This document shows positions 18,310-30,993 of a stretch of 64,000 nucleotides of DNA, piece by piece. The notes under the pieces were generated by a model. It was given only the letters and a program-made list of their open reading frames with translations, searched no databases and was not told where the DNA came from. Numbering within the stretch: position 1 is the stretch's first letter; each line of letters opens with the position of its first letter. Made by a program: the position numbers and the translations under genes. The DNA comes from Tsukamurella spumae. Its GTDB lineage: Bacteria; Actinomycetota; Actinomycetes; Mycobacteriales; Mycobacteriaceae. Location of the stretch: assembly GCF_012396015.1 (NCBI RefSeq), contig NZ_JAAXOQ010000003.1:124001-188000 (forward strand). Direction: 5' to 3'.

Positions 18310-18586
18310 CAGCTCACCATCTGTCTGGTTACTCGGTCCACCAGCATTCATCACGGGTCCGCAGTCGACTCTATGCCTCCGCGAATCCGCCCGGACGCCG
18401 ACCCTTGTTCCATGACCTATCTCACTTGACCTGCGGTTATCAGGCTCCACACCCTACCCGTCGGTAAGTTTTGCGATCGGCACTGCGCGCCCCGGCGATT
18501 GTGACTGAATTCAGAGGACGGCAAGCGCTGGTTAAGCGCCGTCAACGATGGTTACCGCAGTCGACAGTGAATGGAGAACACATCTC

Positions 18587-19381
18587 ATGAAGCCTTCCCG
18601 CCCTGCCCTCGTCGCAGCCTCGGCGGCGCTCGCGCTGACGGTCTCGCTCACCGGCTGCGCCGACAAGGGCAGCTCGTCGAACAGCTCGGAGACCACCGCT
18701 ACCGCCGCCGCGTCGGCAGGAGCCTCGGACATCGACGCGCCTGCTCTACTCAAGGAGACTTCCGAGGCGGCCAAGAACCTCACCAGCACCCACTTCACCG
18801 TGGCGGTGACCGGGAAGGTGCCTAACCTCCCGATCTCGAAGGTCGATGGTGACCTCCAAATCAAGCCCGCCACCCAGGCGCATGGCACCGCGCTGGTGCA
18901 GCCCGGCAATGCGGAAGGCAAGTTCACCTACATCGATGGCAAGATGTACGCCGCACTGTTCGGGGACAAGTACGTCGACTACGGCGACGGCACGTCGATC
19001 TACGATGTCTCGGCCCTCTTCGACCAGAGCAAAGGCATCCCGAACATCCTCACCAAAATCACGGGCGCGCAGGCCGTCGGCACCGAGACCATCGACGGCC
19101 AGGAGACCACCAAGATCACCGGCACGGTGCCCGCGACGGAGATCGCCACCATCTCCGGCTCGCGCGTCGATCCGCAGAAGAGCGTTCCGGTACCCACCAC
19201 CGTGTGGGTCCAGAAGTCCGGCGAAAAGCAGCTCGTCCGCATCGAGGTCAAGCCCATCACCGACGGGGCCATCACGCTCACCTTCTCCAGGTTTGGAGAA
19301 AAGGTCGCCGTGACAAAGCCGAACGTGACCCCCATCGAGACCACCGACAAGCCCGAAGCCGGCGAGGCCCTGCCCCGCTGA
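18587..19381 (+). CDS. LppX/LprAFG-family lipoprotein, copy A
   Basis: A 264-residue lipoprotein. Residues 1-24 form a lipoprotein signal with lipobox LTGC; a Ser/Thr-rich linker follows, then the LppX_LprAFG domain (about 55-250): LLKETSEAAKNLTSTHFTVAVTG, GKFTYIDGKMYA, KYVDYGDGTSIYD, and TVWVQKSGEKQLVRIEV. The family folds into a half-barrel that carries lipids (triacylglycerides, PDIM, LAM) across the periplasm in mycobacteria. GGAGAA lies eight bases before the ATG. The next gene, 59 bases on, encodes a DUF4189 protein, and the pair is repeated in inverted orientation at 20381-21568. It lacks the MFS partner that accompanies LprG. Confidence 0.88.
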   Translation: MKPSRPALVAASAALALTVSLTGCADKGSSSNSSETTATAAASAGASDIDAPALLKETSEAAKNLTSTHFTVAVTGKVPNLPISKVDGDLQIKPATQAHGTALVQPGNAEGKFTYIDGKMYAALFGDKYVDYGDGTSIYDVSALFDQSKGIPNILTKITGAQAVGTETIDGQETTKITGTVPATEIATISGSRVDPQKSVPVPTTVWVQKSGEKQLVRIEVKPITDGAITLTFSRFGEKVAVTKPNVTPIETTDKPEAGEALPR

Positions 19382-19440
19382 CTCCTCGCGATCTCCCCCG
19401 GATCGTGCCATCCCCCAGTATTTTCGAGAAAGGTACCATC

Positions 19441-19821
19441 ATGAAGACCCTGACCAAGAAGGCGTTCGTTGTCGCCGCCACAACCGCTAGCGTCGTGGGC
19501 GGCATCCAGGTCGCGGCCGCCCCCGCCGCGAACGCCGCCGTCAACTTCGGCGCCATCGCGGTCGCGTCCAATGGCGCGACGGGCCGCGCGTGGGACTATC
19601 CTTCCCGGGCCGCCGCCGAGCGCGCCGCACTCAACTCGTGCGGCTGGGGCAGCTGCAAGGTGCTCGCCTCCTTCAGCGACGGCTGCGGCGCCGTCGCCCA
19701 GACCCGCACCCGGTATCAGGGTGGCACCGGCCGTTCCCTCTACGCAGCACAGCGGAGCGCGATCTCACTTTCCGGCGGTGGGTCGATCTTCGTCTGGACC
19801 TGCACCTCCGGTCACCTCTGA
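19441..19821 (+). CDS. Secreted DUF4189 protein, copy A
   Basis: A 126-residue exported protein: signal peptide about 1-33 (cleavage near AAPAANA), then one DUF4189 domain with the pattern FGAIAVASNGATGRAWDYPS, AAERAALNSCG, C-KVLASFSDGCGAVAQT and a final W-C pair (FVWTCTSG). Four conserved cysteines suggest two disulfides. Function of the domain is unknown. It probably shares a transcript with the lipoprotein 59 bases upstream, and ends at a strong hairpin. A paralogue lies at 20381-20749. Confidence 0.85.
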   Translation: MKTLTKKAFVVAATTASVVGGIQVAAAPAANAAVNFGAIAVASNGATGRAWDYPSRAAAERAALNSCGWGSCKVLASFSDGCGAVAQTRTRYQGGTGRSLYAAQRSAISLSGGGSIFVWTCTSGHL

Positions 19822-19843
19822 TCCACCCCGCACAGCGTCGGAG

Positions 19844-19873
19844 GGGCGGCACCGTTTCTCGACGGTGCCGCCC
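19844..19873 (+). terminator. Intrinsic terminator after DUF4189 copy A
   Basis: A perfect 12-bp stem (GGGCGGCACCGT with ACGGTGCCGCCC) around a six-base loop, followed by TTCGG. It contains the octamer GACGGTGC that recurs through the window. Confidence 0.75.
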
Positions 19874-19958
19874 TTCGGCGTGTGCGGGGCTGTTCTTCTG
19901 CTACGGCGCTCGTCGCAGGATGAGGAACCCGGCGGGCGAACACGGGCCGATCGCACTG

Positions 19959-20369
19959 TCATTTCAGACCCTGCAGGACGAGATAGGCCGCGCTCGCGAG
20001 CTGCTCGGCCTGCACCTGCTGGCCACGTGTCGTCGCCACCGACAGGTACCGCCCGACTGGTCGTCGCGATCGCCGCGGGCCAGCGCGACACCGACTTTGA
20101 ACCCCGCGAAACTGAGCACCGTGACGTGGCGCCGACCGTGCTGCCGGAGAAGCTCGAGGGAGCGGCGGAATCGAACACCGGAATCGGCGACCTCCGACGG
20201 CGGCGTTGGATGAGGGGGCACCTACGTCGGGACTCCCTACCTCGCACGCGGCGAGCACGACTGCCACCGAGCCCACCGCGACGAGCCGGCGCAGCACCGC
20301 GGTAGTCCGCGCCACGGCCGGACGATGTATGCCCGTGCCCGCCGCGTGACTGCCGATCATCCCCCTCAT
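19959..20369 (-). pseudogene. Remnant of a DUF7373-type lipoprotein gene
   Basis: A 136-codon frame keeps the two ends of the DUF7373-type lipoproteins found nearby but almost nothing between. The N-terminus has a lipoprotein signal (LRRLVAVGSVAVVLAAC), and the C-terminus VGRYLSVATTRGQQVQAEQLASAAYLVLQ aligns with the ends of the intact genes (VGRYVSEFHGEQRKNVEQVSSAAYLLL). The intact relatives have about 390-400 residues, so roughly 260 residues have been lost, and traces of coding appear in other frames between. I infer a deletion-ridden pseudogene. Confidence 0.7.
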
Positions 20370-20380
20370 CCGTCCGCGTC

Positions 20381-20749
20381 CTATCCAGTGCAGGCCCAGT
20401 AGTAGACGCTGCCGCCACCCGCACTCGCGATTGCGTAGTTCTGAGCTGTGCCGAGGTCGCTTCCGGTGCCGTAGCCCCAGTAGCTCGACGACTCAGCGAT
20501 CGCACCGCACCCGTTCGCGAATTGCGCAACGGTCCGGCAGCCGTACCCACAGCTCGCCCGCGCCGCGCTCGATGCCGCACTGTAGCTCGAATAATTGACC
20601 GCGTAGGAAGCCGCGCCCGTCGAGGTGTTGAGCGCAAGGGCGCCGTAATCGCCGCTCGCGCTCGCGGTGCCAGCGGCTGCGAACGTGGACGCTCCCACGG
20701 CGGCCACCGCGACGGCGACCGCGCCAGCGCGCTTGAGACTGTGCTTCAT
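20381..20749 (-). CDS. Secreted DUF4189 protein, copy B
   Basis: A 122-residue exported protein: signal peptide about 1-32 (MKHSLKRAGAVAVAVAAVGA..., cleavage near ASAS), then a DUF4189 domain with GDYGALALNTSTGAASYAVNYSS, ASCGYGCRTVAQFANGCGAIAES and the terminal YYWACTG. The cysteine spacing matches copy A, but sequence identity looks moderate, so the duplication is not recent. It follows lipoprotein copy B by 33 bases on the same strand. Confidence 0.85.
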   Translation of the reverse strand: MKHSLKRAGAVAVAVAAVGASTFAAAGTASASGDYGALALNTSTGAASYAVNYSSYSAASSAARASCGYGCRTVAQFANGCGAIAESSSYWGYGTGSDLGTAQNYAIASAGGGSVYYWACTG

Positions 20750-20782
20750 GATTTCTCCTCCAGTGATGTCAACGAAAAATGT

Positions 20783-21568
20783 TCAGTTGCGGGGGGTTCC
20801 GGGCGTGGTGCTGGGTACAGCAGAGGGTGCGGGCACGCTCGGCTTCACGACGTCGACCTTCTCGCCCCACTTCGAGAAGTTCATCGTCAATGCCGCGTCT
20901 TTGGCGGGGACCAGCTGCAGGCGAACGAGCTGATGCTCGCCGGACGACTGGATCCAAACGGTGACCGGCACCGGCACGTCCTTGGTCTCCGGATTCACCA
21001 CGCGCGTCCCGGTCAGGGCGCTCACATCCCCGGAGCGGACCTTTCCGACGATCTTGGTGGTGGCCGCCCCTTCGATCGTCTCGGACCCTGCGGCAACGGG
21101 TTCGGAGATCGAGGACAGAACGTGGGGCAGACCCTTCGCAGGGTCGAACAGCAACGCCACGGGGAAGATCGACGCACCGTCGCCGTAGTCGACGTACCGG
21201 CCGGAGATGTTCGAGTACATCTTGCCGTCGATGAAAACGAAGTCGCCCTTGAGCTTGCCACCCATGCTGAGTTCTGCGCTGCCCTTCGCTTGGACTGCGG
21301 GCTTGACGTTGATGCCTCCGGTCGCCTTGGTGAGGGGCAAGTTCGGAACCGTACCCGTCACGTCGATGAGGAACTGGGCGTTGGTCACCGCCTTCGCGGC
21401 CTCGGACGCGGACTTCAGCAGCGACGTCGCGTCAACGGCGCTGGCCGACGCAGTCGCATCGCCGCCCCCGGAACTCGACGAACCCTTGTCTGCGCAGGCC
21501 CCCAGACCGAGGGATACGGTGATCCCGAGCGCGACGATCGCCGCAGTGGATCGACTACGGATATTCAT
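20783..21568 (-). CDS. LppX/LprAFG-family lipoprotein, copy B
   Basis: A 261-residue lipoprotein with lipobox LGAC, a Ser/Gly-rich linker and the LppX_LprAFG domain: LLKSASEAAKAVTNAQFLIDVTG, FVFIDGKMYSNISGRYVDYGDG, LLFDPAKGLPHVLSSI, TVWIQSSGEHQLVRLQL. The mature sequence begins CADKGSSS exactly as in copy A (18587-19381), and each is followed by a DUF4189 gene. It probably binds a lipid at the outer leaflet of the cell membrane and hands it outward, by family analogy. Confidence 0.88.
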   Translation of the reverse strand: MNIRSRSTAAIVALGITVSLGLGACADKGSSSSGGGDATASASAVDATSLLKSASEAAKAVTNAQFLIDVTGTVPNLPLTKATGGINVKPAVQAKGSAELSMGGKLKGDFVFIDGKMYSNISGRYVDYGDGASIFPVALLFDPAKGLPHVLSSISEPVAAGSETIEGAATTKIVGKVRSGDVSALTGTRVVNPETKDVPVPVTVWIQSSGEHQLVRLQLVPAKDAALTMNFSKWGEKVDVVKPSVPAPSAVPSTTPGTPRN

Positions 21569-22077: not shown

Positions 22078-23286
22078 CTACATCCTCCGCAGCAAGAGAT
22101 ACGCCGCGGAGCTGACCTGCTCGACGTTCTTGCGCTGCTCGCCGTGGAATTCGGAGACGTACCTGCCGACCGGTACGTAACACCCGAAACGCTCGGCCGA
22201 CACGGCCGATGCCTTGTATGCGACGCATCGCGCCGTCGGCAGCCCGTCGATACTGAACCTGCGCGATGCACCCCTCTCTCTACTGGCCAAGTGATCGGCC
22301 AGCTTCGCGGCGCCCGCGGGGTCCGCCGCGCGGTACACGTTGTTGCGGCCCACGCCTACCAGATCGACCCCCGCCTCCTCGAACCTCCGCGCCGCGTCGA
22401 CAGGGTCTGTCATCCAGGCGAGCGCCGCCCGGCTCTCCCTGAATCCGAAGTCGGGCTGGAAACGTCCGTCGTCGATGGGTTCAGGCGCGACGGTGTGGCT
22501 CACGATTCCGTCGTGATCCACCGGCAGACCCGCAAGATCGGCGGGACCGGGGGAGGTGAATCCCCTCAGCTGGGCCTGCTGCGCGGCAATCGCCTTCTGC
22601 GCGTAGCCCCGCACCCGGGCACCGTCGGTTCCCTTGTCGGACGCGGCGACAACGATCACGTGACTTCCCGCGGCTGCGAGTACCCGCACCGTGGTCCGTG
22701 TCGAGAAGTAGTCCTTCCCCTCGATCCTGCGCTCCATCGCGGCGGCGCCGCTGACGCCGGGGAGCGTGATCACCTCCGCACCGATCGCGCGCCGGTAGTC
22801 GTCGACGGCACCCGCAGCAGCCGCGTCATCCGGCATGCGGATCAGGCTGAGGTTCAGGTATCGAGTCGAGCCGTCGGACTCCGCGATCCGACTAGTCGCC
22901 ATGCCGTACACCATCGACCGGTCGGTGAGTGGCTTCTGCATCGCAACTCCGAGCTGTTCCTCGTTGTCGTCCCCGTCCTTGAGCTCTGTCAGGTTGCTCG
23001 CCTGCACCACGGCATGCGCGGAGGACATCCAGGTGACCGTGAACTCGGGATCCACGTCCCACGGGAACACCATCCGGTTCGTCAGGATATTGGCGGCGAG
23101 CACCTTGCGTTGCACCGCAGACGCTTTCACCACACGCGGATCGACGGAGAAGTTTCCGTGGTCCAGCCGTATCGCTTCCGCACTCGGATCGGCCACCGCG
23201 GTCCCGTCGATCGTCGTCGCGCAGCCGGCGAGCGCACCGGCCGACACCAGTACGGCTACCAGCGCCCCGACCATGGGCTTCTTCAT
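22078..23286 (-). CDS. DUF7373-type lipoprotein 1
   Basis: A 402-residue lipoprotein with signal MKKPMVGALVAVLVSAGALAGC (lipobox LAGC) and mature start CATTIDGTAVADPSAEAIRLDHGNFSVDPR, the hallmark of a lipoprotein family frequent in Gordonia, Tsukamurella and Nocardia (DUF7373, named from memory). The C-terminal third has CVAYKASAVSAERFGCYVPVGRYVSEF, where two cysteines probably pair. Function unknown. Its ATG overlaps the stop of the next DUF7373-type gene as ATGA, and the five minus-strand genes from 26861 to 22078 are tightly packed, suggesting one operon with the VWA and phosphatase genes. Confidence 0.82.
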   Translation of the reverse strand: MKKPMVGALVAVLVSAGALAGCATTIDGTAVADPSAEAIRLDHGNFSVDPRVVKASAVQRKVLAANILTNRMVFPWDVDPEFTVTWMSSAHAVVQASNLTELKDGDDNEEQLGVAMQKPLTDRSMVYGMATSRIAESDGSTRYLNLSLIRMPDDAAAAGAVDDYRRAIGAEVITLPGVSGAAAMERRIEGKDYFSTRTTVRVLAAAGSHVIVVAASDKGTDGARVRGYAQKAIAAQQAQLRGFTSPGPADLAGLPVDHDGIVSHTVAPEPIDDGRFQPDFGFRESRAALAWMTDPVDAARRFEEAGVDLVGVGRNNVYRAADPAGAAKLADHLASRERGASRRFSIDGLPTARCVAYKASAVSAERFGCYVPVGRYVSEFHGEQRKNVEQVSSAAYLLLRRM

Positions 23287-24437
23287 TTCGCCTCCTTCAG
23301 GATCAGCCACTGCGCCGCCGCACGCTGGTGCGCCGTGGTCAGGTCGTCTCCGAGCACCCGCGCGACATACCGATCCACCACGACGAAGCAGGCGAACCCA
23401 TTGAGCGAGACCGACTTGGCGCAGCTCACCGCATCCCCCAGCACCGGAACGCCCGCGGCCGGCGTGTTGCCGCTCGCAGCCGACCATGCCCGCGCGAACC
23501 CCTTCGCGGCCTCACGGTCCCGCGCCCGCGCGACCACGCTGACGTTCCAGCCCACGAGGTCGACGCCCGCGGTGCGGTAGTCGACGAGCACCGTCGGATT
23601 CAGCAGCCGCCGCTCGAGCATCGACAGCGTAAGCACCCCGATCGCTCGAATATCGCGCTTCCCCGGGTGTTCGGAACCCATCGTCCGAGCCAACATGCCG
23701 CCGCGATCCAGCGGCAGCGCTGTGATCCGCGCCTGCGCGGTGGGTACGAAAGCGCGCGCCAGCGGCAACTGCCGCGCCAGCGCCGCCTCCGCGAGCTTGA
23801 GCGCTGCTGCCGAATCGGCTGCCCGTGCGCGAACCAGTAGAATGATCGGCCCCACGCGAACGACCGACTCCACTGTGCCGGCCACTAGCTCAACCGACTT
23901 CGCGTCGTTCGCCCCCGCGACCGCCACCGAACGATGCTTCTCCCACTCGTATCCGATGGACTTCTCAGCGGACTCCACGTCCTTGTCGGATTCGAACCGG
24001 TACATGCCCGCCCGAACTTCGCGTGTCGAGCCCGTTTCCCGGTCCGCCCGTGCCACCATGACCGCGACTTTCGCCCCGTCGATGAGGACGGACCTGTCGT
24101 TCGGTCCCGTGAAGCCGGTCCAGTCGATGACCGGAACAGATTCGATCCCCTCCACGGGGAAGGTCAGCGCCGGTTCGACCTCGGCCGGGAGGACAAGCGC
24201 CTCGAGCATCCGGTTTCCCTCGGCGATCCATGCGCGATCCGGGTCCCCCTGTGGGGGCACGTACCCCGTGACCTTCTCCTCACCGATGTCCAGTCCCGCG
24301 GGGATGGCGACGCTGCTCGAGTCCCCGGGCGGCGCCATTGCGCTGCCGGGGATGGCCTGACCGCACGCCGCCACGGCGAGCCCCATCAGTGTCACGATCG
24401 TGCCCGTCATCCCACAACGAGTTCCGCCCCTCCGCAT
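23283..24437 (-). CDS. DUF7373-type lipoprotein 2
   Basis: A 384-residue paralogue of the downstream lipoprotein. Signal and lipobox are GTIVTLMGLAVAAC; the mature part begins CGQAIPGSAMAPP. Landmarks shared with the other copies are ALPLDRGGMLARTM, LVDYRTAGVDLVGWNVSVVARARDREAAKGFA and the end CFVVVDRYVARVL...AAAQWLILKEAK. It is a divergent paralogue, not a recent duplicate. GGAAGGG precedes the ATG at 24437; a shorter start ten codons on is possible. It sits 11 bases after the dispanin gene. Confidence 0.8.
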   Translation of the reverse strand: MRRGGTRCGMTGTIVTLMGLAVAACGQAIPGSAMAPPGDSSSVAIPAGLDIGEEKVTGYVPPQGDPDRAWIAEGNRMLEALVLPAEVEPALTFPVEGIESVPVIDWTGFTGPNDRSVLIDGAKVAVMVARADRETGSTREVRAGMYRFESDKDVESAEKSIGYEWEKHRSVAVAGANDAKSVELVAGTVESVVRVGPIILLVRARAADSAAALKLAEAALARQLPLARAFVPTAQARITALPLDRGGMLARTMGSEHPGKRDIRAIGVLTLSMLERRLLNPTVLVDYRTAGVDLVGWNVSVVARARDREAAKGFARAWSAASGNTPAAGVPVLGDAVSCAKSVSLNGFACFVVVDRYVARVLGDDLTTAHQRAAAQWLILKEAK

Positions 24438-24448
24438 AGCGGCCCTTC

Positions 24449-24970
24449 CTACGCTGCGACCAACGCGGACAAGATGATCCACACCAGCACCCATGCCAAT
24501 CCCGATGCCAGTGCGATGAGCGACCACGTCTTCGCGCTCTCGGCTGCGGCGCGCGCCTCGCTCTCGTGCCCGAGCTGCCACAGCTTGTTCACGTTCGCGG
24601 CTTTGACTACCGCGAAGATCCCGACGGGGTTGCCGCACAGCAGGACCGTGCAGATCGCGAACACCATGTAGTTGTGGGGTGGCATCATGTTCCGCTGCGG
24701 ATCCCCGCCAGGGTTCCCTATGTTCGGCGCGGCACCGGGGTAGCCCGGCTGCGGGTTCCCAGCGCCGTACGCCGGCGGCGCGGGCTGCTGATACGGAGGT
24801 GCCACAGGCTGCTGATACTGAGGTACCACAGGCTGCTGATACTGAGGCGCCAACCCGGGCTGCGGCATTCGCGGAGCCTCGGGCATCATCGGTCGCTCCG
24901 GAACAGGCGCCGCGGCGGGCGGTTGCGCCGCGGCGCCGTAGCTGGGCCGGTAGGGCTTGTTGTCCGTCAT
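24449..24970 (-). CDS. CD225/dispanin-family membrane protein
   Basis: A 173-residue protein. Residues 1-95 are Pro/Gln/Tyr-rich with PQYQQP repeats; then the dispanin domain: PPHNYMVFAICTVLLCGNPVGIFAVVKAANVNKLWQLGH (first helix and re-entrant loop with conserved Cys), SEARAAAESAKTWSLIALASGLAWVLVWIIL (second helix). Bacterial dispanins are two-helix membrane proteins of unclear role, related to IFITM proteins. The N-terminus contains KPYRPSY, identical to the last seven residues of the small protein at 28561-28797 in the same cluster. Only two bases separate it from the phosphatase gene. Confidence 0.85.
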   Translation of the reverse strand: MTDNKPYRPSYGAAAQPPAAAPVPERPMMPEAPRMPQPGLAPQYQQPVVPQYQQPVAPPYQQPAPPAYGAGNPQPGYPGAAPNIGNPGGDPQRNMMPPHNYMVFAICTVLLCGNPVGIFAVVKAANVNKLWQLGHESEARAAAESAKTWSLIALASGLAWVLVWIILSALVAA

Positions 24971-24972
24971 TG

Positions 24973-26193
24973 TCAGTCACCAATTCCGTTCAGGTTCTTA
25001 CGGCCCCGACCCAGAGCGGGTCGAGTGGGCCACACCGCCACAAGGGAGCGATCGTCATCGAAGGTCTCGCGGGAGAAGTCCACCGCGTTGCCGAACTCCA
25101 TCATCGACGGCACCGTCGAGCCGAGCACAGCACGCAGGAGATCGCCCACACCCCCCTGTCCCGAGCCCAGCGGATCCCCGACCCCGTCCGAGCCGAGCAG
25201 TAGGACGTCGTCCGGGTACAGCACGGCGGACACCGGCGTGATCGACGACGGGGTGCGCGGCAGGCCGACGACGGCCGAGCTCGCGAGTCCGCCCGCCCCG
25301 TCGTTCTTTCCACCGAGCAGGGGAACGAACTCGCCGTCCCGGAGGATCCAGCCGCTCGAATCCCCGACGCCGATCGCCTCGACCTCCAGAACGCCGTCCG
25401 GATTCGGGTCGATCACCGCAGCGACCATCGTGGTGGCGAAACCACGTTCCACGTCCTCGCCGTCGATCTCGCCACCGAGGACCGACCGGGCGCGCTCAGT
25501 CATCTGCCAGCTGATCGCACGGACCAGCTCCAGCCAGGCGATCCGGGCCCCTACTTCGGGCGCCTCGGACAGGAGCCATTGCACCGCAACGGTGGTCGCC
25601 GTCGACGCCCCGATATGTGCGTGGAGGGCCGCAGAGACTCCGTCGGCGACCACCGCGATGATCCGGCCCGACGGTGCCGCATGCACGGCCACATCGTCCT
25701 GCCGCGGGGCACCGTCGTACCGATGGAGGTGGCCACGAAGCGACACGGCCCGCACCGTCGCCGCGCGCGTACTCCACCCATCGAGCATGGTGTCGGGCCT
25801 GAACGGCACGGAGCGGAACCGATCCGCCGTCGGCCGGGGCTCCACGCTCGGCCCTTGATCGCCGACGACCACCTGCTCGATCCGGACGGTGCCGCGCACC
25901 GCCGGGAGCGGTCCGCCCGACGAGAGCCCGGCGAGGGGGAACGACGGGGTCGACGCGTCGTCCGTCACCCGCGGATTATCCGGTGTGGGCCCCCATGGCT
26001 GCCCGAATGCCGGTGGCGGTGCAACCGGCGGCGCGGTGGCGTACGGAACCGTCGGGTGCGGGTTGCGTGCGTCCCCGTACGTTTCCGGCCCCCACACTCC
26101 GTCGAGCACAGCGGGAAATTCGTCGGTCGGATCAGAATCATCACCGTCGCGCTTGCCGAACCAGCGACGGAGTCCCCCCTTAACCTCCGCCAT
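24973..26193 (-). CDS. PP2C-family serine/threonine phosphatase
   Basis: A 406-residue protein: a disordered Pro-rich N-terminal region (1-140) and a PPM/PP2C domain (about 145-390). Metal-binding motifs are present: RQDD (166-167), VVADGVS (Asp184), FATTMVAAV, LLLGSDGVGDPL (Asp336) and DDDRSLVAVW (Asp380-381). It should dephosphorylate Ser/Thr in an Mn/Mg-dependent way, presumably reversing the transmembrane kinase encoded divergently at 27071-28564. Two bases separate it from the VWA gene upstream. Kinase, PP2C and TerY-like VWA form the known TerY-P triad. Confidence 0.88.
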   Translation of the reverse strand: MAEVKGGLRRWFGKRDGDDSDPTDEFPAVLDGVWGPETYGDARNPHPTVPYATAPPVAPPPAFGQPWGPTPDNPRVTDDASTPSFPLAGLSSGGPLPAVRGTVRIEQVVVGDQGPSVEPRPTADRFRSVPFRPDTMLDGWSTRAATVRAVSLRGHLHRYDGAPRQDDVAVHAAPSGRIIAVVADGVSAALHAHIGASTATTVAVQWLLSEAPEVGARIAWLELVRAISWQMTERARSVLGGEIDGEDVERGFATTMVAAVIDPNPDGVLEVEAIGVGDSSGWILRDGEFVPLLGGKNDGAGGLASSAVVGLPRTPSSITPVSAVLYPDDVLLLGSDGVGDPLGSGQGGVGDLLRAVLGSTVPSMMEFGNAVDFSRETFDDDRSLVAVWPTRPALGRGRKNLNGIGD

Positions 26194-26195
26194 TG

Positions 26196-26861
26196 CTACA
26201 CGTAGTCCACGGCCAGGCTGAAGCCCTCAGGCTTCTCAAGCTGCAGAGCGCCCGCACCACCCGCGAGTGCATTGCCGGAGGCGATCACGGACTGCGTCAG
26301 CTGGGTCATGAACTCGCTGATCGCCACGCCGGTGTCCATGCCCCGCGAGCTGATGAAGGCATAGTGCGGCTGGGTGGCGATCTCGACGATAGTGGCCGCG
26401 TCCACCTCGCCGATGCCGAACGCGAGGACGTTCGGCGCAGCCGGCTGCGCGAGCATGTAGTCCCGAGCGGCACGCCAATCCTCGTTCCGGTTGGGAACGC
26501 CGTCGGTGAGGAAGAACACCGCCGGGCGATGCACCTGATAGCCCTGAGCTTTAAGATTCGGTACGTCCACCGAGATGCGGTAGCCGATCTGGTCGAAGAC
26601 CGCCTGGTAGGACGTCAGACCGCGAGCCCGGAAAGAAGGCATGTGCGGCAGCGTTCGCAGATCGGCCGGCTCCAGGTAGGTCACGGCATCGTCCGCGAAG
26701 CCGATCACCGAGAATCGGATCTTGGCCGCCGCGAACGACTCGACCTGCATCGCGTCCTGCAACGACACAAGTCCCTCATTCAGCTCGTGAATGTGCGGGC
26801 CCATCGAGCCCGACTCATCGGCGACGAAATACATCGGCAGCAGCGTGCCCCTGGGTTCCAT
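26196..26861 (-). CDS. TerY-like VWA-domain protein
   Basis: A 221-residue stand-alone von Willebrand A domain without signal peptide. The MIDAS site is complete: YFVADESGSMG (Asp15, Ser17, Ser19), the Thr in RGLTSYQAVF (Thr83) and FFLTDGVPN (Asp120). TerY proteins belong to tellurite-resistance-type stress systems and occur with a PP2C phosphatase and an atypical kinase. I prefer the ATG at 26861, because the decayed paralogue at 21823 begins at the same point; a GTG at 26879 would add six residues. It is the first gene of the minus-strand operon and divergent from the kinase. Confidence 0.88.
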   Translation of the reverse strand: MEPRGTLLPMYFVADESGSMGPHIHELNEGLVSLQDAMQVESFAAAKIRFSVIGFADDAVTYLEPADLRTLPHMPSFRARGLTSYQAVFDQIGYRISVDVPNLKAQGYQVHRPAVFFLTDGVPNRNEDWRAARDYMLAQPAAPNVLAFGIGEVDAATIVEIATQPHYAFISSRGMDTGVAISEFMTQLTQSVIASGNALAGGAGALQLEKPEGFSLAVDYV

Positions 26862-27070
26862 ATGTCGGCTTCCCCTCACTCGTTCGATACCGCCCGATCG
26901 CGGTTCGGCGCCAACCGAATTGCTTCAAGTTCAGCACAACATATTATGCAGTACACTCGGGTGGGGCGCGACGTTTCGGATCAGCGGCACAATCCGCCGT
27001 TAAGGAATCGGCAACCGATCGACGGGGATATCGGGATTTGCACCTCGCGGAACGAGGGGGAACGGGGAGC
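26862..27070. promoter_or_regulatory. Divergent promoter region between VWA/phosphatase operon and kinase operon
   Basis: A 209-base gap separates the two diverging operons. The only AT-rich patch is CATATTATGCAGTAC (26940-26954); on the minus strand it contains TAATAT, a plausible -10 box for the VWA operon. I cannot assign -35 boxes or operators. The kinase ATG is preceded by GGGGGAACGGGGAGC. Confidence 0.4.
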
Positions 27071-28564
27071 ATGAGCGAGTCTGCGAATCAGAGTGGGGCA
27101 CGAACGCTCGAACGGAACCGGCTCGGACAGCTGACGAAGCTAGCGGCGGGCGGTCAGGGCACCACCTACCAGGCCCCCCGGGTCCACCTCGGGTTCGCCG
27201 ACAATGTCGTCTACAAGGAGTACAAGCCGGACGTCCTGCGGGGGCTCAACGTCCCCCAGCTCGTTTCACTGCCCCAGTTCCTCCTCGACCAGCCCGGAGC
27301 CATCGCGCTCAGACTCGTGACCCTGTGCGCGTGGCCGTGCGCCGTCGTCGAAGACCAGGGGCGTGTCACGGGGTTCGTGATGCCACTGATCCCGGAACGC
27401 TTCTTCATAGACATGACCACGGTCCGCGGTGCGCAACGGCGGACCGCCGAATTCCAGCACCTGCTGAACAGCGCCGAATACCTGGCCCAGCGCGGGATCT
27501 CCATCACCGAGAGCGACATCTACCGCCTCATCGCCGCGGTCGCCGACGCCCTGACCTTCCTGCACTCCCTGGGCATCGCGGTAGGTGACATGTCGCCCAA
27601 GAACCTGATGTTCACGGTGCAGCCCGAGCCCGCGGTCTACTTCATCGATACCGACGCGATGCGGGTTCGCGGCAACAGCGTCGCGGACCAGGTCGAGAGC
27701 CCCGGGTGGAGCGTCCCGAACGGCGAAGAACTCGGAACAGCATTCAGCGATCGGTACAAGCTCGGGCTGCTCGCATTGCGTCTGCTGTGCGGTGACCACG
27801 ATGTCTCCGATCCCGGGCGGCTTCCGGCCGACGTCCCGGCCGACATCGCGGGTCTGATCCAGCGCTCTCTGAGCGTCACGCCGACAGCCCGCCCAGCACC
27901 GTCGGACTGGATTCCGCGAGCGAACTCGGCCGCCGAGAACGCTCGCCCCGCGAAGGCGGCCGCGCCGCCCACCGTCAAGGTCGCCACGACTGTGCGCCCC
28001 AGTGGTCTGGCCGCGGCGCAACCCGGCTCGCCACACCGAGCGCCTGCGTCCCCCGCCGCGCCGGCTCCGGCTCGTCCAACGGCGAACCCGGCCCAGGCGA
28101 AGCCGACCCGAGTCTCCAGTGGCGTGGTCTGGGGGATCATCTGCGCCGTGGCGCTGGCGGCGATCATCGTCGTGATCGTGGTGCAGTCGACAGGTTCCAG
28201 CTCGTCCTCCGCCGTCACCACCACTCGTTATCCGACTCCCACGACCGCCGACTACACGTACCCGACCACCGCGCCGACCACGGCGACAACCACCACCACC
28301 ACGCCCCGTACCGCGCGGAACGTGCCGTCATATGCCACTACATGTCCCTCCGGCAATTACGCGGTGAACTCGGTGACCACCTGTGGTTTCGCGTCGAACG
28401 TGTTCCTGGCGATGAACCGCAGTGAGTTACCTAAGTTGTACCTGGGCATCACGAGCCCGGCCCGCGCGGATCGCACCTTCGACATGCTCTGCCGGTACTA
28501 CGACACCACGTCGAACCTCGTGCTATGCAGCGGCGGCGACAATGCGGAGGTCTACATTCCATGA
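27071..28564 (+). CDS. Atypical transmembrane serine/threonine protein kinase (TerY-P triad type)
   Basis: A 497-residue membrane kinase. The kinase domain (about 15-280) has an unusual glycine loop LAAGGQGTTYQAP, a probable ATP-binding Lys49 in VVYKEYKP, catalytic loop VGDMSPKNLMF (Asp173, Asn178, replacing HRD) and metal-binding FIDTDAM (Asp193). The DMSPKN/DTD pattern is typical of kinases found with TerY-like VWA and PP2C proteins. A Pro/Ala linker leads to one transmembrane helix (about 351-371), then a Thr-rich stalk and an extracellular domain with four cysteines (CPSGNYAVNSVTTCGFASNV...MLCRYYD...LVLCSGG). It probably senses an envelope signal. Stop overlaps the next start as ATGA. Confidence 0.88.
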   Translation: MSESANQSGARTLERNRLGQLTKLAAGGQGTTYQAPRVHLGFADNVVYKEYKPDVLRGLNVPQLVSLPQFLLDQPGAIALRLVTLCAWPCAVVEDQGRVTGFVMPLIPERFFIDMTTVRGAQRRTAEFQHLLNSAEYLAQRGISITESDIYRLIAAVADALTFLHSLGIAVGDMSPKNLMFTVQPEPAVYFIDTDAMRVRGNSVADQVESPGWSVPNGEELGTAFSDRYKLGLLALRLLCGDHDVSDPGRLPADVPADIAGLIQRSLSVTPTARPAPSDWIPRANSAAENARPAKAAAPPTVKVATTVRPSGLAAAQPGSPHRAPASPAAPAPARPTANPAQAKPTRVSSGVVWGIICAVALAAIIVVIVVQSTGSSSSSAVTTTRYPTPTTADYTYPTTAPTTATTTTTTPRTARNVPSYATTCPSGNYAVNSVTTCGFASNVFLAMNRSELPKLYLGITSPARADRTFDMLCRYYDTTSNLVLCSGGDNAEVYIP

Positions 28565-28797
28565 CACCCGGTGACCGAACGAACGACACAACGGCGGCCA
28601 CGGCTCCGCCTCCCACGACCCAGCAGTTCGATCCCTACGCGGTGACTCTCCCGCGCATCGCCGTCGACCGGGGCGCGTTCATCCACGCGTCCGACGCCAC
28701 GGCTCCGGCGCCCGCGAACACCCCGGCGCCGGAGCCGCCTGCCGGTCCCCGGCGACGCCCCACCCCGCCACTCAAGCCGTACCGGCCCAGTTACTGA
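28561..28797 (+). CDS. Small proline-rich protein ending in KPYRPSY
   Basis: A 78-residue protein of unknown function, overlapping the kinase stop by four bases. It is Thr/Pro-rich with no signal peptide or membrane segment: TTAATAPPPTTQQFDPYAV, a short hydrophobic-charged middle (LPRIAVDRGAFIHAS), and a Pro-rich end. Its last seven residues are identical to residues 5-11 of the dispanin encoded 3.6 kb away in the same cluster. Threonines beside TTQQFDP would be natural kinase targets. I infer an adaptor or substrate of the kinase; nothing is proven. Confidence 0.7.
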   Translation: MTPGDRTNDTTAATAPPPTTQQFDPYAVTLPRIAVDRGAFIHASDATAPAPANTPAPEPPAGPRRRPTPPLKPYRPSY

Positions 28798-28961
28798 CGG
28801 TCGGCACCACCGTCAGCCACGGGCGATCGAACCGAGCACCGAGCAGGCACGGCCTGAAGGCTGCCCAGCGCACCACTAAATGCCCAGCTCACCACCTCTG
28901 GATCAGACGATGCACAACACATAGGGTTTTCGTATTCCAACCCGTGGAGATCGGAGAAACG

Positions 28962-29165
28962 ATGAAGAACCTCGCCCTCACCACACTGACCGCCCTGCTC
29001 ATCGCGTCCGGCAGTGTCGCGGCCAGCGGGACCGCCAATGCCGATGTCGGCTGGATCGGACCGTTCTCCTCGAGCTGGACGTGTGAGCAGAACGCGTGGT
29101 CTTGGGGATGGCAAGCGACCTGCGAGCGCGGCGACGACGGCTGGTACTGGTGGAGCCCGCGGTAA
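28962..29165 (+). CDS. Tryptophan-rich small secreted peptide
   Basis: A 67-residue precursor: signal peptide MKNLALTTLTALLIASGSVA..., cleavage after GTANA, leaving about 39 residues. The mature part has eight tryptophans and two cysteines (GWIGPFSSSW, WSWGW, GWYWWSPR), a composition seen in some antimicrobial or envelope-binding peptides. GGAGA and a second GGAGAA lie upstream of the ATG at 28962. No family recognised. It starts 164 bases after the Pro-rich gene and precedes the pseudokinase gene by five bases. Confidence 0.7.
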   Translation: MKNLALTTLTALLIASGSVAASGTANADVGWIGPFSSSWTCEQNAWSWGWQATCERGDDGWYWWSPR

Positions 29166-29170
29166 CGGCC

Positions 29171-29782
29171 ATGACCTCGATGACCGCCGCGGAACTGATC
29201 CGCACTCGAGCCCCGATCGCCCCAGCCGACGTGGCGACTATCGTGGACCGCGTCGCAGCCGAGTTGCTCTGCGAATGGGAGTGCCATCACCGCCTGCACG
29301 GTGCCGTCCAACCCGACAACATCGTCGTGACATTCATCTCCGGCAGCGTCCACACCGCACGGCTTATCGGCTTCGTCGATCCCGAGCTCGCGGGTACGGT
29401 GCTCGCGCGGTCCGGCGACGTAGAACCGACGGTGCACGTGCGCGATGTCCACCAGAAGTCCTACCCCGCGACGGAGAGCATTCTCGGCGGACGACTCGAC
29501 CACCGCACCGACGTCTATTCCCTCGCCTGCACCGCGTTCGAGCTTCTCACGGGTCTGCGGCCGCACGGAGGAGGAACCGTCCAGGACGTGATGCGATCGG
29601 TGATCGATGGCACCGCGCAGGACCTCCCCCTCGGAACGCAGGCTCAGCGCAGCGTGCTCCGGTCAGCGATGGCGCCCGATTCCGCTGCGCGGCCAATCAC
29701 CGCGCTGCGGTTCGCCGCCGACTTCCGGCGCGCCTTCCATGAAGACCCGACCGCGGCCATCACGATCGGAACTCGCCCGTGA
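29171..29782 (+). CDS. Pseudokinase (kinase C-lobe without catalytic residues)
   Basis: A 203-residue protein resembling only the C-lobe of a Ser/Thr kinase. The catalytic loop reads HGAVQPDNIVV, where HRDxKPxN would be expected: Asp is replaced by Ala and Lys by Gln. The DFG position reads LIGFVDPELAG. The APE-helix F region is kept: YPATESILGGRLDHRTDVYSLACTAFELLTGLRP. The N-lobe with glycine loop and VAIK lysine is missing. It must be catalytically dead, possibly a scaffold or regulator of the membrane kinase. Start ATG at 29171 follows the Trp-rich gene closely; its stop overlaps the next lipoprotein start as GTGA. A truncated decaying gene is the alternative. Confidence 0.7.
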   Translation: MTSMTAAELIRTRAPIAPADVATIVDRVAAELLCEWECHHRLHGAVQPDNIVVTFISGSVHTARLIGFVDPELAGTVLARSGDVEPTVHVRDVHQKSYPATESILGGRLDHRTDVYSLACTAFELLTGLRPHGGGTVQDVMRSVIDGTAQDLPLGTQAQRSVLRSAMAPDSAARPITALRFAADFRRAFHEDPTAAITIGTRP

Positions 29783-30993
29783 AGCGCACCTGCGCCGTCG
29801 TCGCGCTGTGCATGCTGCTGGCAGGATGCAGCACTGCAATCCCCGGCGAGCCGGTCGCTGATCCGTCCGCGTTGAAACTCGATACCGGAAACTACGCGAC
29901 TACGCCGCGTACCGTTGCTGCGATCGCAGCGGCCGATGCCTGGCAACAGGAGGGTTTCAACATGGCCGAGGCGGTCGTCGCACCGTTCGACATCCGTCCC
30001 ACCCTCACAGTGCAGTCCACAGCCATCGAAACCTTCAGCACATCGATCATCCACCCGGTGCAGATGGTCGACTTCCGCGACGAGCGAAAGAGCGACGGCT
30101 TCCTCACCCGCGATCAGACCTTGAAGCTTCTGGGAACCTCGTTTCAGACCGGCTTCCTCGCGGAGGCCGCTGACAACGCCACCGACCCGGCTGTCCACCT
30201 GCGTTCCGGCCTGCTCCGCTTCCAAGACTCGGATGCCGCCGCACGCGCACTGCAGATCATGCGCGACTCCGCCGCTGAGACTCCGGCCGAGATCGCCAAG
30301 GTCCGCGGCGCCGCGGTCGTAGCGAACTACCCTACGTTCGGCCGCACCCGACTCGCTGCTGCGGCCCAGGTGGGCAACCTGATCGCGGTGTCGTCGGCCA
30401 CTACCCGTGCCGCAACCGACGCTCCGGAGCTCGTCTCGAGCATCCTCGAGGCACAGGTGACGAAGGCCACCACCTACCGTCAGGGAGCTCCCCTGGGCCA
30501 GTATCGACTGATCCCGATGGACAAGGACGGCATCATGTCTCGCACACTGCCCAGCTCGGTCGAGGCAGAGCCCTCGGTCCTAGGACTGTCATCACGCGTC
30601 CACTTCGCCGATGGATACCGTTCCACTCGAACCCATTACATGATGACCCTCGACCGCGATTGGTACGACAAAGCGACCCGCAACGGGATCGACCTCGTTG
30701 CCTGGACGTCGGAGAGCGTGGTGTATCGCGTGAGAGACCGCGCGAGCGCATACGCGTTCGCCAACTCCTCTCCGGATGGCGTCACCACCACCTCTGCGCC
30801 TCCCGAGTCAGGTGACAATCGAATACCTGGGCTCCCCCGCAACGCGAACGTCTGCGTTCACACGACGACATCGACCGGTTGCACTGCCATCGTTGGCCGG
30901 TACCTGGTCAACTCGGTACACAAGACCCTCCAGCAGGCACGGCAAGCGACCGCGGCGCTGTACATGATCAACAAGGCAGCCGGCGAGAACTGA
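29779..30993 (+). CDS. DUF7373-type lipoprotein 3
   Basis: A 404-residue lipoprotein: signal MKRTCAVVALCMLLAGC, mature start CSTAIPGEPVADPSALKLDTGNYATTPR. The C-terminus repeats the family pattern with two cysteines, ANVCVHTTTSTGCTAIVGRYLVNSV, and ends AALYMINKAAGEN. It starts with GTG overlapping the pseudokinase stop, so it is coupled to that gene. The kinase-side and phosphatase-side operons thus both end in DUF7373-type lipoproteins, implying that these belong to the system. It meets the acetoacetyl-CoA synthetase gene with no gap between the two stop codons. Confidence 0.82.
   Translation: MKRTCAVVALCMLLAGCSTAIPGEPVADPSALKLDTGNYATTPRTVAAIAAADAWQQEGFNMAEAVVAPFDIRPTLTVQSTAIETFSTSIIHPVQMVDFRDERKSDGFLTRDQTLKLLGTSFQTGFLAEAADNATDPAVHLRSGLLRFQDSDAAARALQIMRDSAAETPAEIAKVRGAAVVANYPTFGRTRLAAAAQVGNLIAVSSATTRAATDAPELVSSILEAQVTKATTYRQGAPLGQYRLIPMDKDGIMSRTLPSSVEAEPSVLGLSSRVHFADGYRSTRTHYMMTLDRDWYDKATRNGIDLVAWTSESVVYRVRDRASAYAFANSSPDGVTTTSAPPESGDNRIPGLPRNANVCVHTTTSTGCTAIVGRYLVNSVHKTLQQARQATAALYMINKAAGEN

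Follow-up and report, generated by a model that had tools for sequence, protein, structure and literature searches.

What does a TerY-P-type triad of kinase, phosphatase and VWA protein act upon when its kinase spans the membrane? The question is raised by ten genes of Tsukamurella spumae (assembly GCF_012396015.1; 4.46 Mb in 79 contigs) that lie within a 64,000-nucleotide stretch of contig NZ_JAAXOQ010000003.1, referred to here as the window. In this island, at positions 22078-30993, two divergent arms encode a TerY-like VWA protein, a PP2C-family phosphatase and a transmembrane (TM) Ser/Thr kinase, together with a dispanin, a small protein (G), a Trp-rich peptide, a pseudokinase and three DUF7373 lipoproteins. 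Our preferred reading, to which we give a probability of about 0.5, is that the triad forms a phospho-switch facing the cell envelope, whose clients would be marked by KPYxP[S/T]Y at one terminus. The features are as follows, with the evidence for each in brackets.

22078-23286, minus strand: lipoA, DUF7373 lipoprotein A, apparently a separable resident (Pfam, slot comparison)
23283-24410, minus strand: lipoB, DUF7373 lipoprotein B, apparently a separable resident (Pfam, slot comparison)
24449-24970, minus strand: CD225/dispanin membrane protein with an N-terminal KPYRPSY at residues 5-11 (Pfam CD225, E 3.6e-17)
24973-26193, minus strand: PP2C-family phosphatase, 406 residues (PP2C_2, E 1.3e-14)
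26196-26861, minus strand: TerY-like VWA protein, 221 residues, with an intact metal-ion-dependent adhesion site (MIDAS) (Pfam VWA, 26.9 bits)
26862-27070, no strand: divergent intergenic region of 209 nt separating the arms (gene coordinates)
27071-28564, plus strand: transmembrane Ser/Thr kinase (catalytic residues, TM helix, ectodomain)
28561-28797, plus strand: small Pro-rich protein G with a C-terminal KPYRPSY (position, conserved tail)
28962-29165, plus strand: secreted Trp-rich peptide, 67 residues (similarity to a triad-kinase ectodomain from another genus, G023)
29171-29782, plus strand: C-lobe-only pseudokinase (HRD to HGA, DFG to GFV)
29779-30993, plus strand: lipoC, DUF7373 lipoprotein C, apparently a separable resident, adjoining AACS (Pfam, slot comparison)

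These coordinates, and the spacings between genes, depend on the start codons that we chose. All ten genes are open frames. On the minus arm, 2 nt separate VWA from PP2C and PP2C from the dispanin, 38 nt separate the dispanin from lipoB, and lipoB and lipoA overlap by 4 nt. On the plus arm, the kinase and G overlap by 4 nt (ATGA), the Trp-rich peptide follows G after 164 nt, the pseudokinase begins 5 nt further on, and the pseudokinase and lipoC overlap by 4 nt. The gene content and order given in the original prediction, as two tightly packed divergent arms, held for all ten genes.

The VWA, PP2C and kinase core

The VWA protein scored 26.9 bits against a Pfam cut-off of 23.8, and is 45-89% identical to seven relatives. 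Its MIDAS (DxSxS, T, D) is intact, with D15, S17, S19, T83 and D120 invariant in 8/8 sequences. The PP2C protein shows 60-75% identity in two Tsukamurella relatives. The kinase falls under the Pfam cut-off (22.5 vs 31.7 bits), and its K49, D173, N178 and D195 are invariant in all 33 aligned sequences.

A tblastn search with the VWA gave matches in 2236 plasmid records, most of them from enterobacteria. The matching VWA of a Klebsiella michiganensis plasmid (31.6% identity, E 6e-10) lies alongside TerD-family, TerY-C, PP2C and kinase-like genes, and this match with its ter-type neighbours ties the island VWA to the TerY family by sequence. On a Streptomyces plasmid the VWA is accompanied by PP2C and by a gene matching the kinase, and a Rhodococcus plasmid carries VWA plus kinase. 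Matches to the VWA alignment in genome_contigs defined 65 named loci; the kinase query gave no match in the same collection. VWA, PP2C and kinase lie within 6 kb in 54 of the 65 loci, with kinase and VWA sharing a strand in 51 and lying on opposite strands in three. By this 6-kb test a part was missing in 11 loci, some of them at contig ends, and our gene caller, which is based on G+C at third codon positions (GC3), performed poorly at lower-GC loci. The kinase is divergent in all three Tsukamurella triads. Presence of the VWA is patchy (3/16 genus and 14/201 family genomes). Judged by the TerY-type plasmid match and the joint occurrence of the three genes, the core is a real TerY-P-type triad, as had been predicted.

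The island triad resembles TerY-P in that the same three gene families are adjacent and its VWA is akin to plasmid TerY-type VWAs. However, the TerY-P definition, in the part of PMC11090510 available to us, includes a zinc ribbon fused to the kinase, whereas the island kinase ends in a TM helix and an ectodomain, not in a zinc ribbon or OB-fold. Pfam gave no zinc-ribbon match on the kinase, and no TerD relative was found in the window. The kinase domain (residues ~1-290) is followed by a linker, the TM helix (352-370) and a Cys-containing ectodomain (~421-497). Compared with the triads of two other Tsukamurella genomes, G010 and G007, the kinase domain is 63% and 64% identical, respectively, and the ectodomain 64% and 32%. 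The architecture itself is not new, since the GAP1-N2 section of PMC7159879 already mentions a TM-fused kinase that adjoins PP2C and a standalone vWA. The island differs from the module of that section in having no GTPase or tubulin among its Pfam matches, and the description given there makes no mention of clients tagged with KPYxP[ST]Y.

Two Tsukamurella genomes free of the triad carry the kinase ectodomain on a kinase-less protein with a hydrophobic stretch (L032 9655-10524, L033 2897-3628). Among solved structures, the kinase had no match at a threshold of 1e-6, and the VWA matched weakly to six sequences, all of them VWA domains of the anthrax toxin receptor of the host.

The KPYxP[S/T]Y tag

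An identical heptapeptide, KPYRPSY, is found at the N-terminus of the dispanin (MTDNKPYRPSY) and at the C-terminus of protein G, a match that the original prediction did not point out. Protein G is encoded immediately after the kinase in each of the three Tsukamurella triads, where its tails read KPYRPSY, KPYKPSY and KPYIPTY. It is otherwise divergent, with 39% identity over 61 residues to its G007 counterpart and no BLAST match at 1e-3 with that of G010. At a locus of a Mycobacterium metagenome-assembled genome (MAG; L085), the gene directly upstream of VWA-kinase-PP2C encodes a membrane protein that has two to three hydrophobic stretches and KPYRPSY as its last residues. Its tag codons show three synonymous differences from those of the window G, and its tail has a VDR[GS]A stretch in common with G of the window genome and of G007. 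The tag is thus carried by three scaffolds, a soluble Pro-rich protein, a CD225 dispanin and a multi-segment membrane protein. Shuffling each tail 400,000 times never produced the motif.

A degenerate DNA pattern for the tag matched five times in the 16 genus genomes, four times in the islands and once in G004, where it decodes to KPYIPWY. Across 401 family genomes the pattern matched 23 times, in 21 of them, and six of the matches decode to KPYxP[S/T]Y: the four in the islands and two in a further genome, G272. As a terminal motif, KPYxP[S/T]Y has four copies in the 401 genomes, all within these islands. The G272 matches were rejected as blind confirmation, being internal in a 669-residue membrane-protein open reading frame (ORF) and in a 91-residue ORF, and no triad homologue was found in the 17- and 20-kb stretches around them. 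In the remaining 17 matches the S/T place is taken by a stop, R, C or W. Seven, all from one genus, are ORFs ending in KPYRP-stop (L148-L153, L155), with no island homologues within 3 kb; another, in G292, is an ORF ending in KPYRPCY, whose frame has a GC3 of 0.57 and is probably non-coding.

We favour a role for the motif in recognition or phosphorylation because the S/T is conserved, because a kinase is present and because VWA MIDAS sites bind extended peptides, as described in the portion of PMC7159879 at hand. A more specific claim is tentative, and we place it somewhat below even odds: an envelope-type TerY-P module would read KPYxP[S/T]Y, as a portable docking or phosphorylation tag at protein ends, on three unrelated scaffolds.

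The AACS slot and its modules

The island had been predicted to couple the triad to the dispanin, the lipoproteins and the Trp-rich peptide as a single system. We compared the slot between AACS and the DUF4189, LppX and sucC genes in 16 Tsukamurella genomes, 15 of which were assessable (the slot of G012 ends at a contig edge). Triad and DUF7373 genes occur together in the window genome (G000) and G010, the triad without DUF7373 in G007, DUF7373 without the triad in four genomes (G005, G015, G008 and G009), and neither in eight (G001, G002, G003, G004, G006, G011, G013 and G014). G005 and G015 carry lipoA, lipoB and a divergent lipoC in the same order as the window, G008 carries lipoA and lipoB, and G009 has two DUF7373 matches. 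In G005 the chosen starts of lipoB and lipoC are divergent and 157 nt apart. In the window 5.4 kb separates the two genes, and contains dispanin-PP2C-VWA and kinase-G-Trp-pseudokinase.

The simplest history would be that a triad cassette was inserted between resident divergent lipoprotein genes, which are now probably co-transcribed with it; the alternative is loss from an ancestor that had both triad and lipoproteins. A single integrated island was rejected, as lipoproteins and triad vary independently across slots, and the ten genes are not supported as one system. The predicted coupling was only partly supported: DUF7373 genes occupy the slot without the triad in 4/15 genomes, and dispanin, triad and DUF7373 were found together solely in the window genome, one of the 16, which is the outcome that the original prediction had named as refuting. 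The lipoproteins look like separable neighbours rather than parts of the core.

DUF7373 N and C domains scored over the Pfam cut-offs on lipoA, lipoB and lipoC, which have, by eye, the lipoboxes LAGC, VAAC and LAGC. A literature search for DUF7373 gave no paper. Among the 65 named loci, only that of Tsukamurella sp. PLM1 (L075) has DUF7373 in the stretch examined. Lipoprotein A of this strain is split over two overlapping frames and looks broken (L030 13454-14654). To the left of the island, at 18584-21568 of the window, a pair of genes for an LppX/LprAFG lipoprotein and a DUF4189 secreted protein is present in two copies, tail-to-tail; G010 and G007 show one pair.

The dispanin, a bacterial member of the family to which the antiviral IFITM proteins of humans belong, scored over the Pfam cut-off for CD225 and has hydrophobic segments at residues 104-122 and 151-169. 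CD225 was found in two of the 16 genus genomes, those of the window and of G010. The G010 protein is untagged and is encoded elsewhere in its genome, beside a glgC-like gene (identified by eye). No dispanin match was found in the stretches examined around the 65 named loci. The CD225 domain and two hydrophobic segments are shared with the bacterial dispanins and mycobacterial IFITMs of PMC4488726, but the N-terminal KPYRPSY and the setting in a kinase-phosphatase cluster set the island dispanin apart from those described in the part of that paper available to us, which states, in 2015, that no study had yet addressed what bacterial IFITMs do.

The Trp-rich peptide, which has no Pfam match, aligns over W-I-GP[YF]SS[ST]WTC[ED]Q...W...C...Y with relatives at two other triads. 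At L085 the relative is a secreted peptide behind PP2C, and in another genus (G023) it is the C-terminal ectodomain of the triad kinase. These alignments tie the peptide independently to triads at two loci.

The pseudokinase call of the original prediction was borne out. In comparison with the active-looking G007 kinase, the protein is without an N-lobe, HGA replaces HRD and GFV replaces DFG. A complete Ser/Thr kinase whose extracellular domain is PknH-like is also encoded in the G007 slot (L031 12220-13878).

Weighing a proposed envelope-facing phospho-switch

In the scheme that we favour, the Cys-containing ectodomain would sense an extracellular cue, and the transmembrane kinase would phosphorylate cytosolic clients, a modification that PP2C would reverse. 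The soluble VWA would hold an extended peptide at its metal site, and so couple clients to the kinase-PP2C pair. The terminal KPYxP[S/T]Y would mark the clients, G in all three Tsukamurella triads and also the dispanin in the window genome, where a dispanin client would bring the output to the membrane. The Trp-rich peptide and the pseudokinase may modulate the input. We read VWA, PP2C, kinase and G as the core, the dispanin and the Trp-rich peptide as likely partners, and the lipoproteins as neighbours.

The proposed switch can be likened to the PpkA-PppA-Fha1 pathway with TagQRST, the threonine phosphorylation pathway of the type VI secretion system, which responds to envelope injury in the part of PMC12133291 available to us. 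There, a membrane kinase and a phosphatase control how far a cytosolic client is phosphorylated upon envelope injury, with envelope proteins upstream. The likeness concerns only how the two might work. There was no FHA match among the nine island proteins scanned with Pfam.

Several observations weigh against the scheme. Tagged triad loci number four, three in Tsukamurella and one in the Mycobacterium MAG, and among the 65 named loci the other 63 yielded no ORF with KPYxP[ST]Y at its end in the stretches examined, some of which are cut by contig ends. The degenerate DNA pattern is not enriched (23 matches vs about 30 for a reversed control), so the case for the tag depends on its decoded, terminal form. 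The dispanin accompanies a triad in one genome only, and neither it nor the Trp-rich peptide had a match at the other two Tsukamurella triad loci. In addition, a consensus scan of 26700-29100 recognised no sigma-70-like promoter, and co-transcription is therefore deduced from gene spacing.

The rival explanation that survives best, although we think it rather unlikely, is that a plain functional TerY-P triad lies in a variable slot among unrelated passengers (dispanin, G, Trp-rich peptide, pseudokinase and lipoproteins), the tag having arisen by copying of a short coding piece or by chance. The many module combinations in the slot across the assessable genomes are consistent with this, as is the lack of the accessory partners at the other named loci, except L085. 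The island genes have a GC3 of 0.78-0.85, under that of sucC, AACS and the next gene (0.91-0.94); since GC3 is also low in the left-hand LppX and DUF4189 genes (0.80-0.88), these values fit an accessory origin without marking an island edge. Against it stand the retention of the tag in all three G proteins, its appearance, with synonymous codon changes, on a third, membrane-type scaffold in Mycobacterium, and the tail shuffles, none of which gave the motif. The recurrence of the Trp module at the triads of L085 and G023 also speaks against this rival.

A second rival, which we consider unlikely to a greater degree, takes the DUF7373 lipoproteins and Trp-rich peptides as the real unit, a contact or ligand-binding surface, and the triad merely as its regulator. 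The Trp-rich domain gave 12 matches in 7/151 family genomes, and on that count a ubiquitous secreted family was rejected. All four matches in the window genome are near DUF7373 (about 45, 95 and 140 nt away with the starts chosen, or one gene off), although its 12 DUF7373 genes sit at only eight places. On the other hand, two of these four copies are near-identical duplicates, and no DUF7373 was found in six other stretches (8.6-16.5 kb) around Trp-domain matches, two of which are weak matches; a general DUF7373-Trp linkage was accordingly rejected (0/6 stretches elsewhere). The near-identical peptides belong to DUF7373 and Trp-peptide pairs (L038 5378-7133 on contig C78, L039 6017-7722 on C11) that lie close to contig ends and adjoin transposase-looking ORFs (by eye; the one tested had no Pfam match). 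Some Trp-domain copies elsewhere end proteins that have a membrane-anchor-like stretch: two proteins without a kinase (L173 6168-7871, L172 7517-8128) have a hydrophobic stretch and long Thr/Pro linkers, with the Trp-rich domain at the end. One possibility is that the Trp module serves as a small sensor or ligand unit outside the cell and has moved among kinases, lipoprotein loci and free peptides.

To ask what surrounds the triads of relatives, we scanned 97 proteins near the triads of 22 loci (L077-L102), omitting three near-duplicate loci and two that gave no protein. Among the best-populated 25 of 113 Pfam families, the leading ones were Acyl_transf_3 (5), GH3 (4), GDSL (4) and beta-lactamase-fold (3), with kinase, helicase, ResIII and PycTM at two each; the best-populated 25 of 106 PADLOC families include kinase models, DrmD (2) and PycTM (2). 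GH3 precedes the VWA in two Mycobacterium loci tested singly, and in three Nocardia loci a beta-lactamase-fold serine hydrolase begins within ~4 nt behind the kinase:

L091 13718-14977: beta-lactamase-fold hydrolase adjoining the kinase
L092 13783-15039: beta-lactamase-fold hydrolase adjoining the kinase
L096 13742-14974: beta-lactamase-fold hydrolase adjoining the kinase

These neighbours lean towards an envelope role, though not firmly, because the counts have no background set for comparison. Of the roles originally suggested, one at the envelope gained from the TM kinase with its ectodomain and from the envelope-type enzymes that neighbour some of the relatives in Mycobacterium and Nocardia, and phage defence found little support. 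A stand-alone anti-phage TerY-P module with the membrane parts as effectors is the least probable reading: phage defence by TerY-P-like modules is on record in the available parts of PMC7699616 and PMC11090510, the VWA is patchily distributed, PADLOC kinase models pick up both the kinase and the pseudokinase (MkoA 2e-7; PD-T4-6 1e-17) and DrmD and PycTM occur among the relatives' neighbours, but the VWA and PP2C have no PADLOC match at E<=1, the models matched are ones with which kinases in general may score, and the kinase, with a TM helix and ectodomain instead of an OB-fold or zinc ribbon, reaches only 14 bits against STK_OB, which MkoA and PD-T4-6 outscore.

No clients of a TerY-P triad are named in the literature that we found (PMC11090510, PMC7159879 and PMC7699616, each in the part available to us). 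Direct searches of the library on TerY-P and TerY in combination with other terms gave no paper. The slot comparison indicates that a surface-lipoprotein locus and a signalling cassette have been combined module by module. With the tag present on the dispanin as well as on G, short peptides would allow tests of both TerY-P clients and dispanin function. If the claim of a portable tag is true, the tag would be a first molecular handle on the action of bacterial dispanins and on the clients of TerY-P triads.

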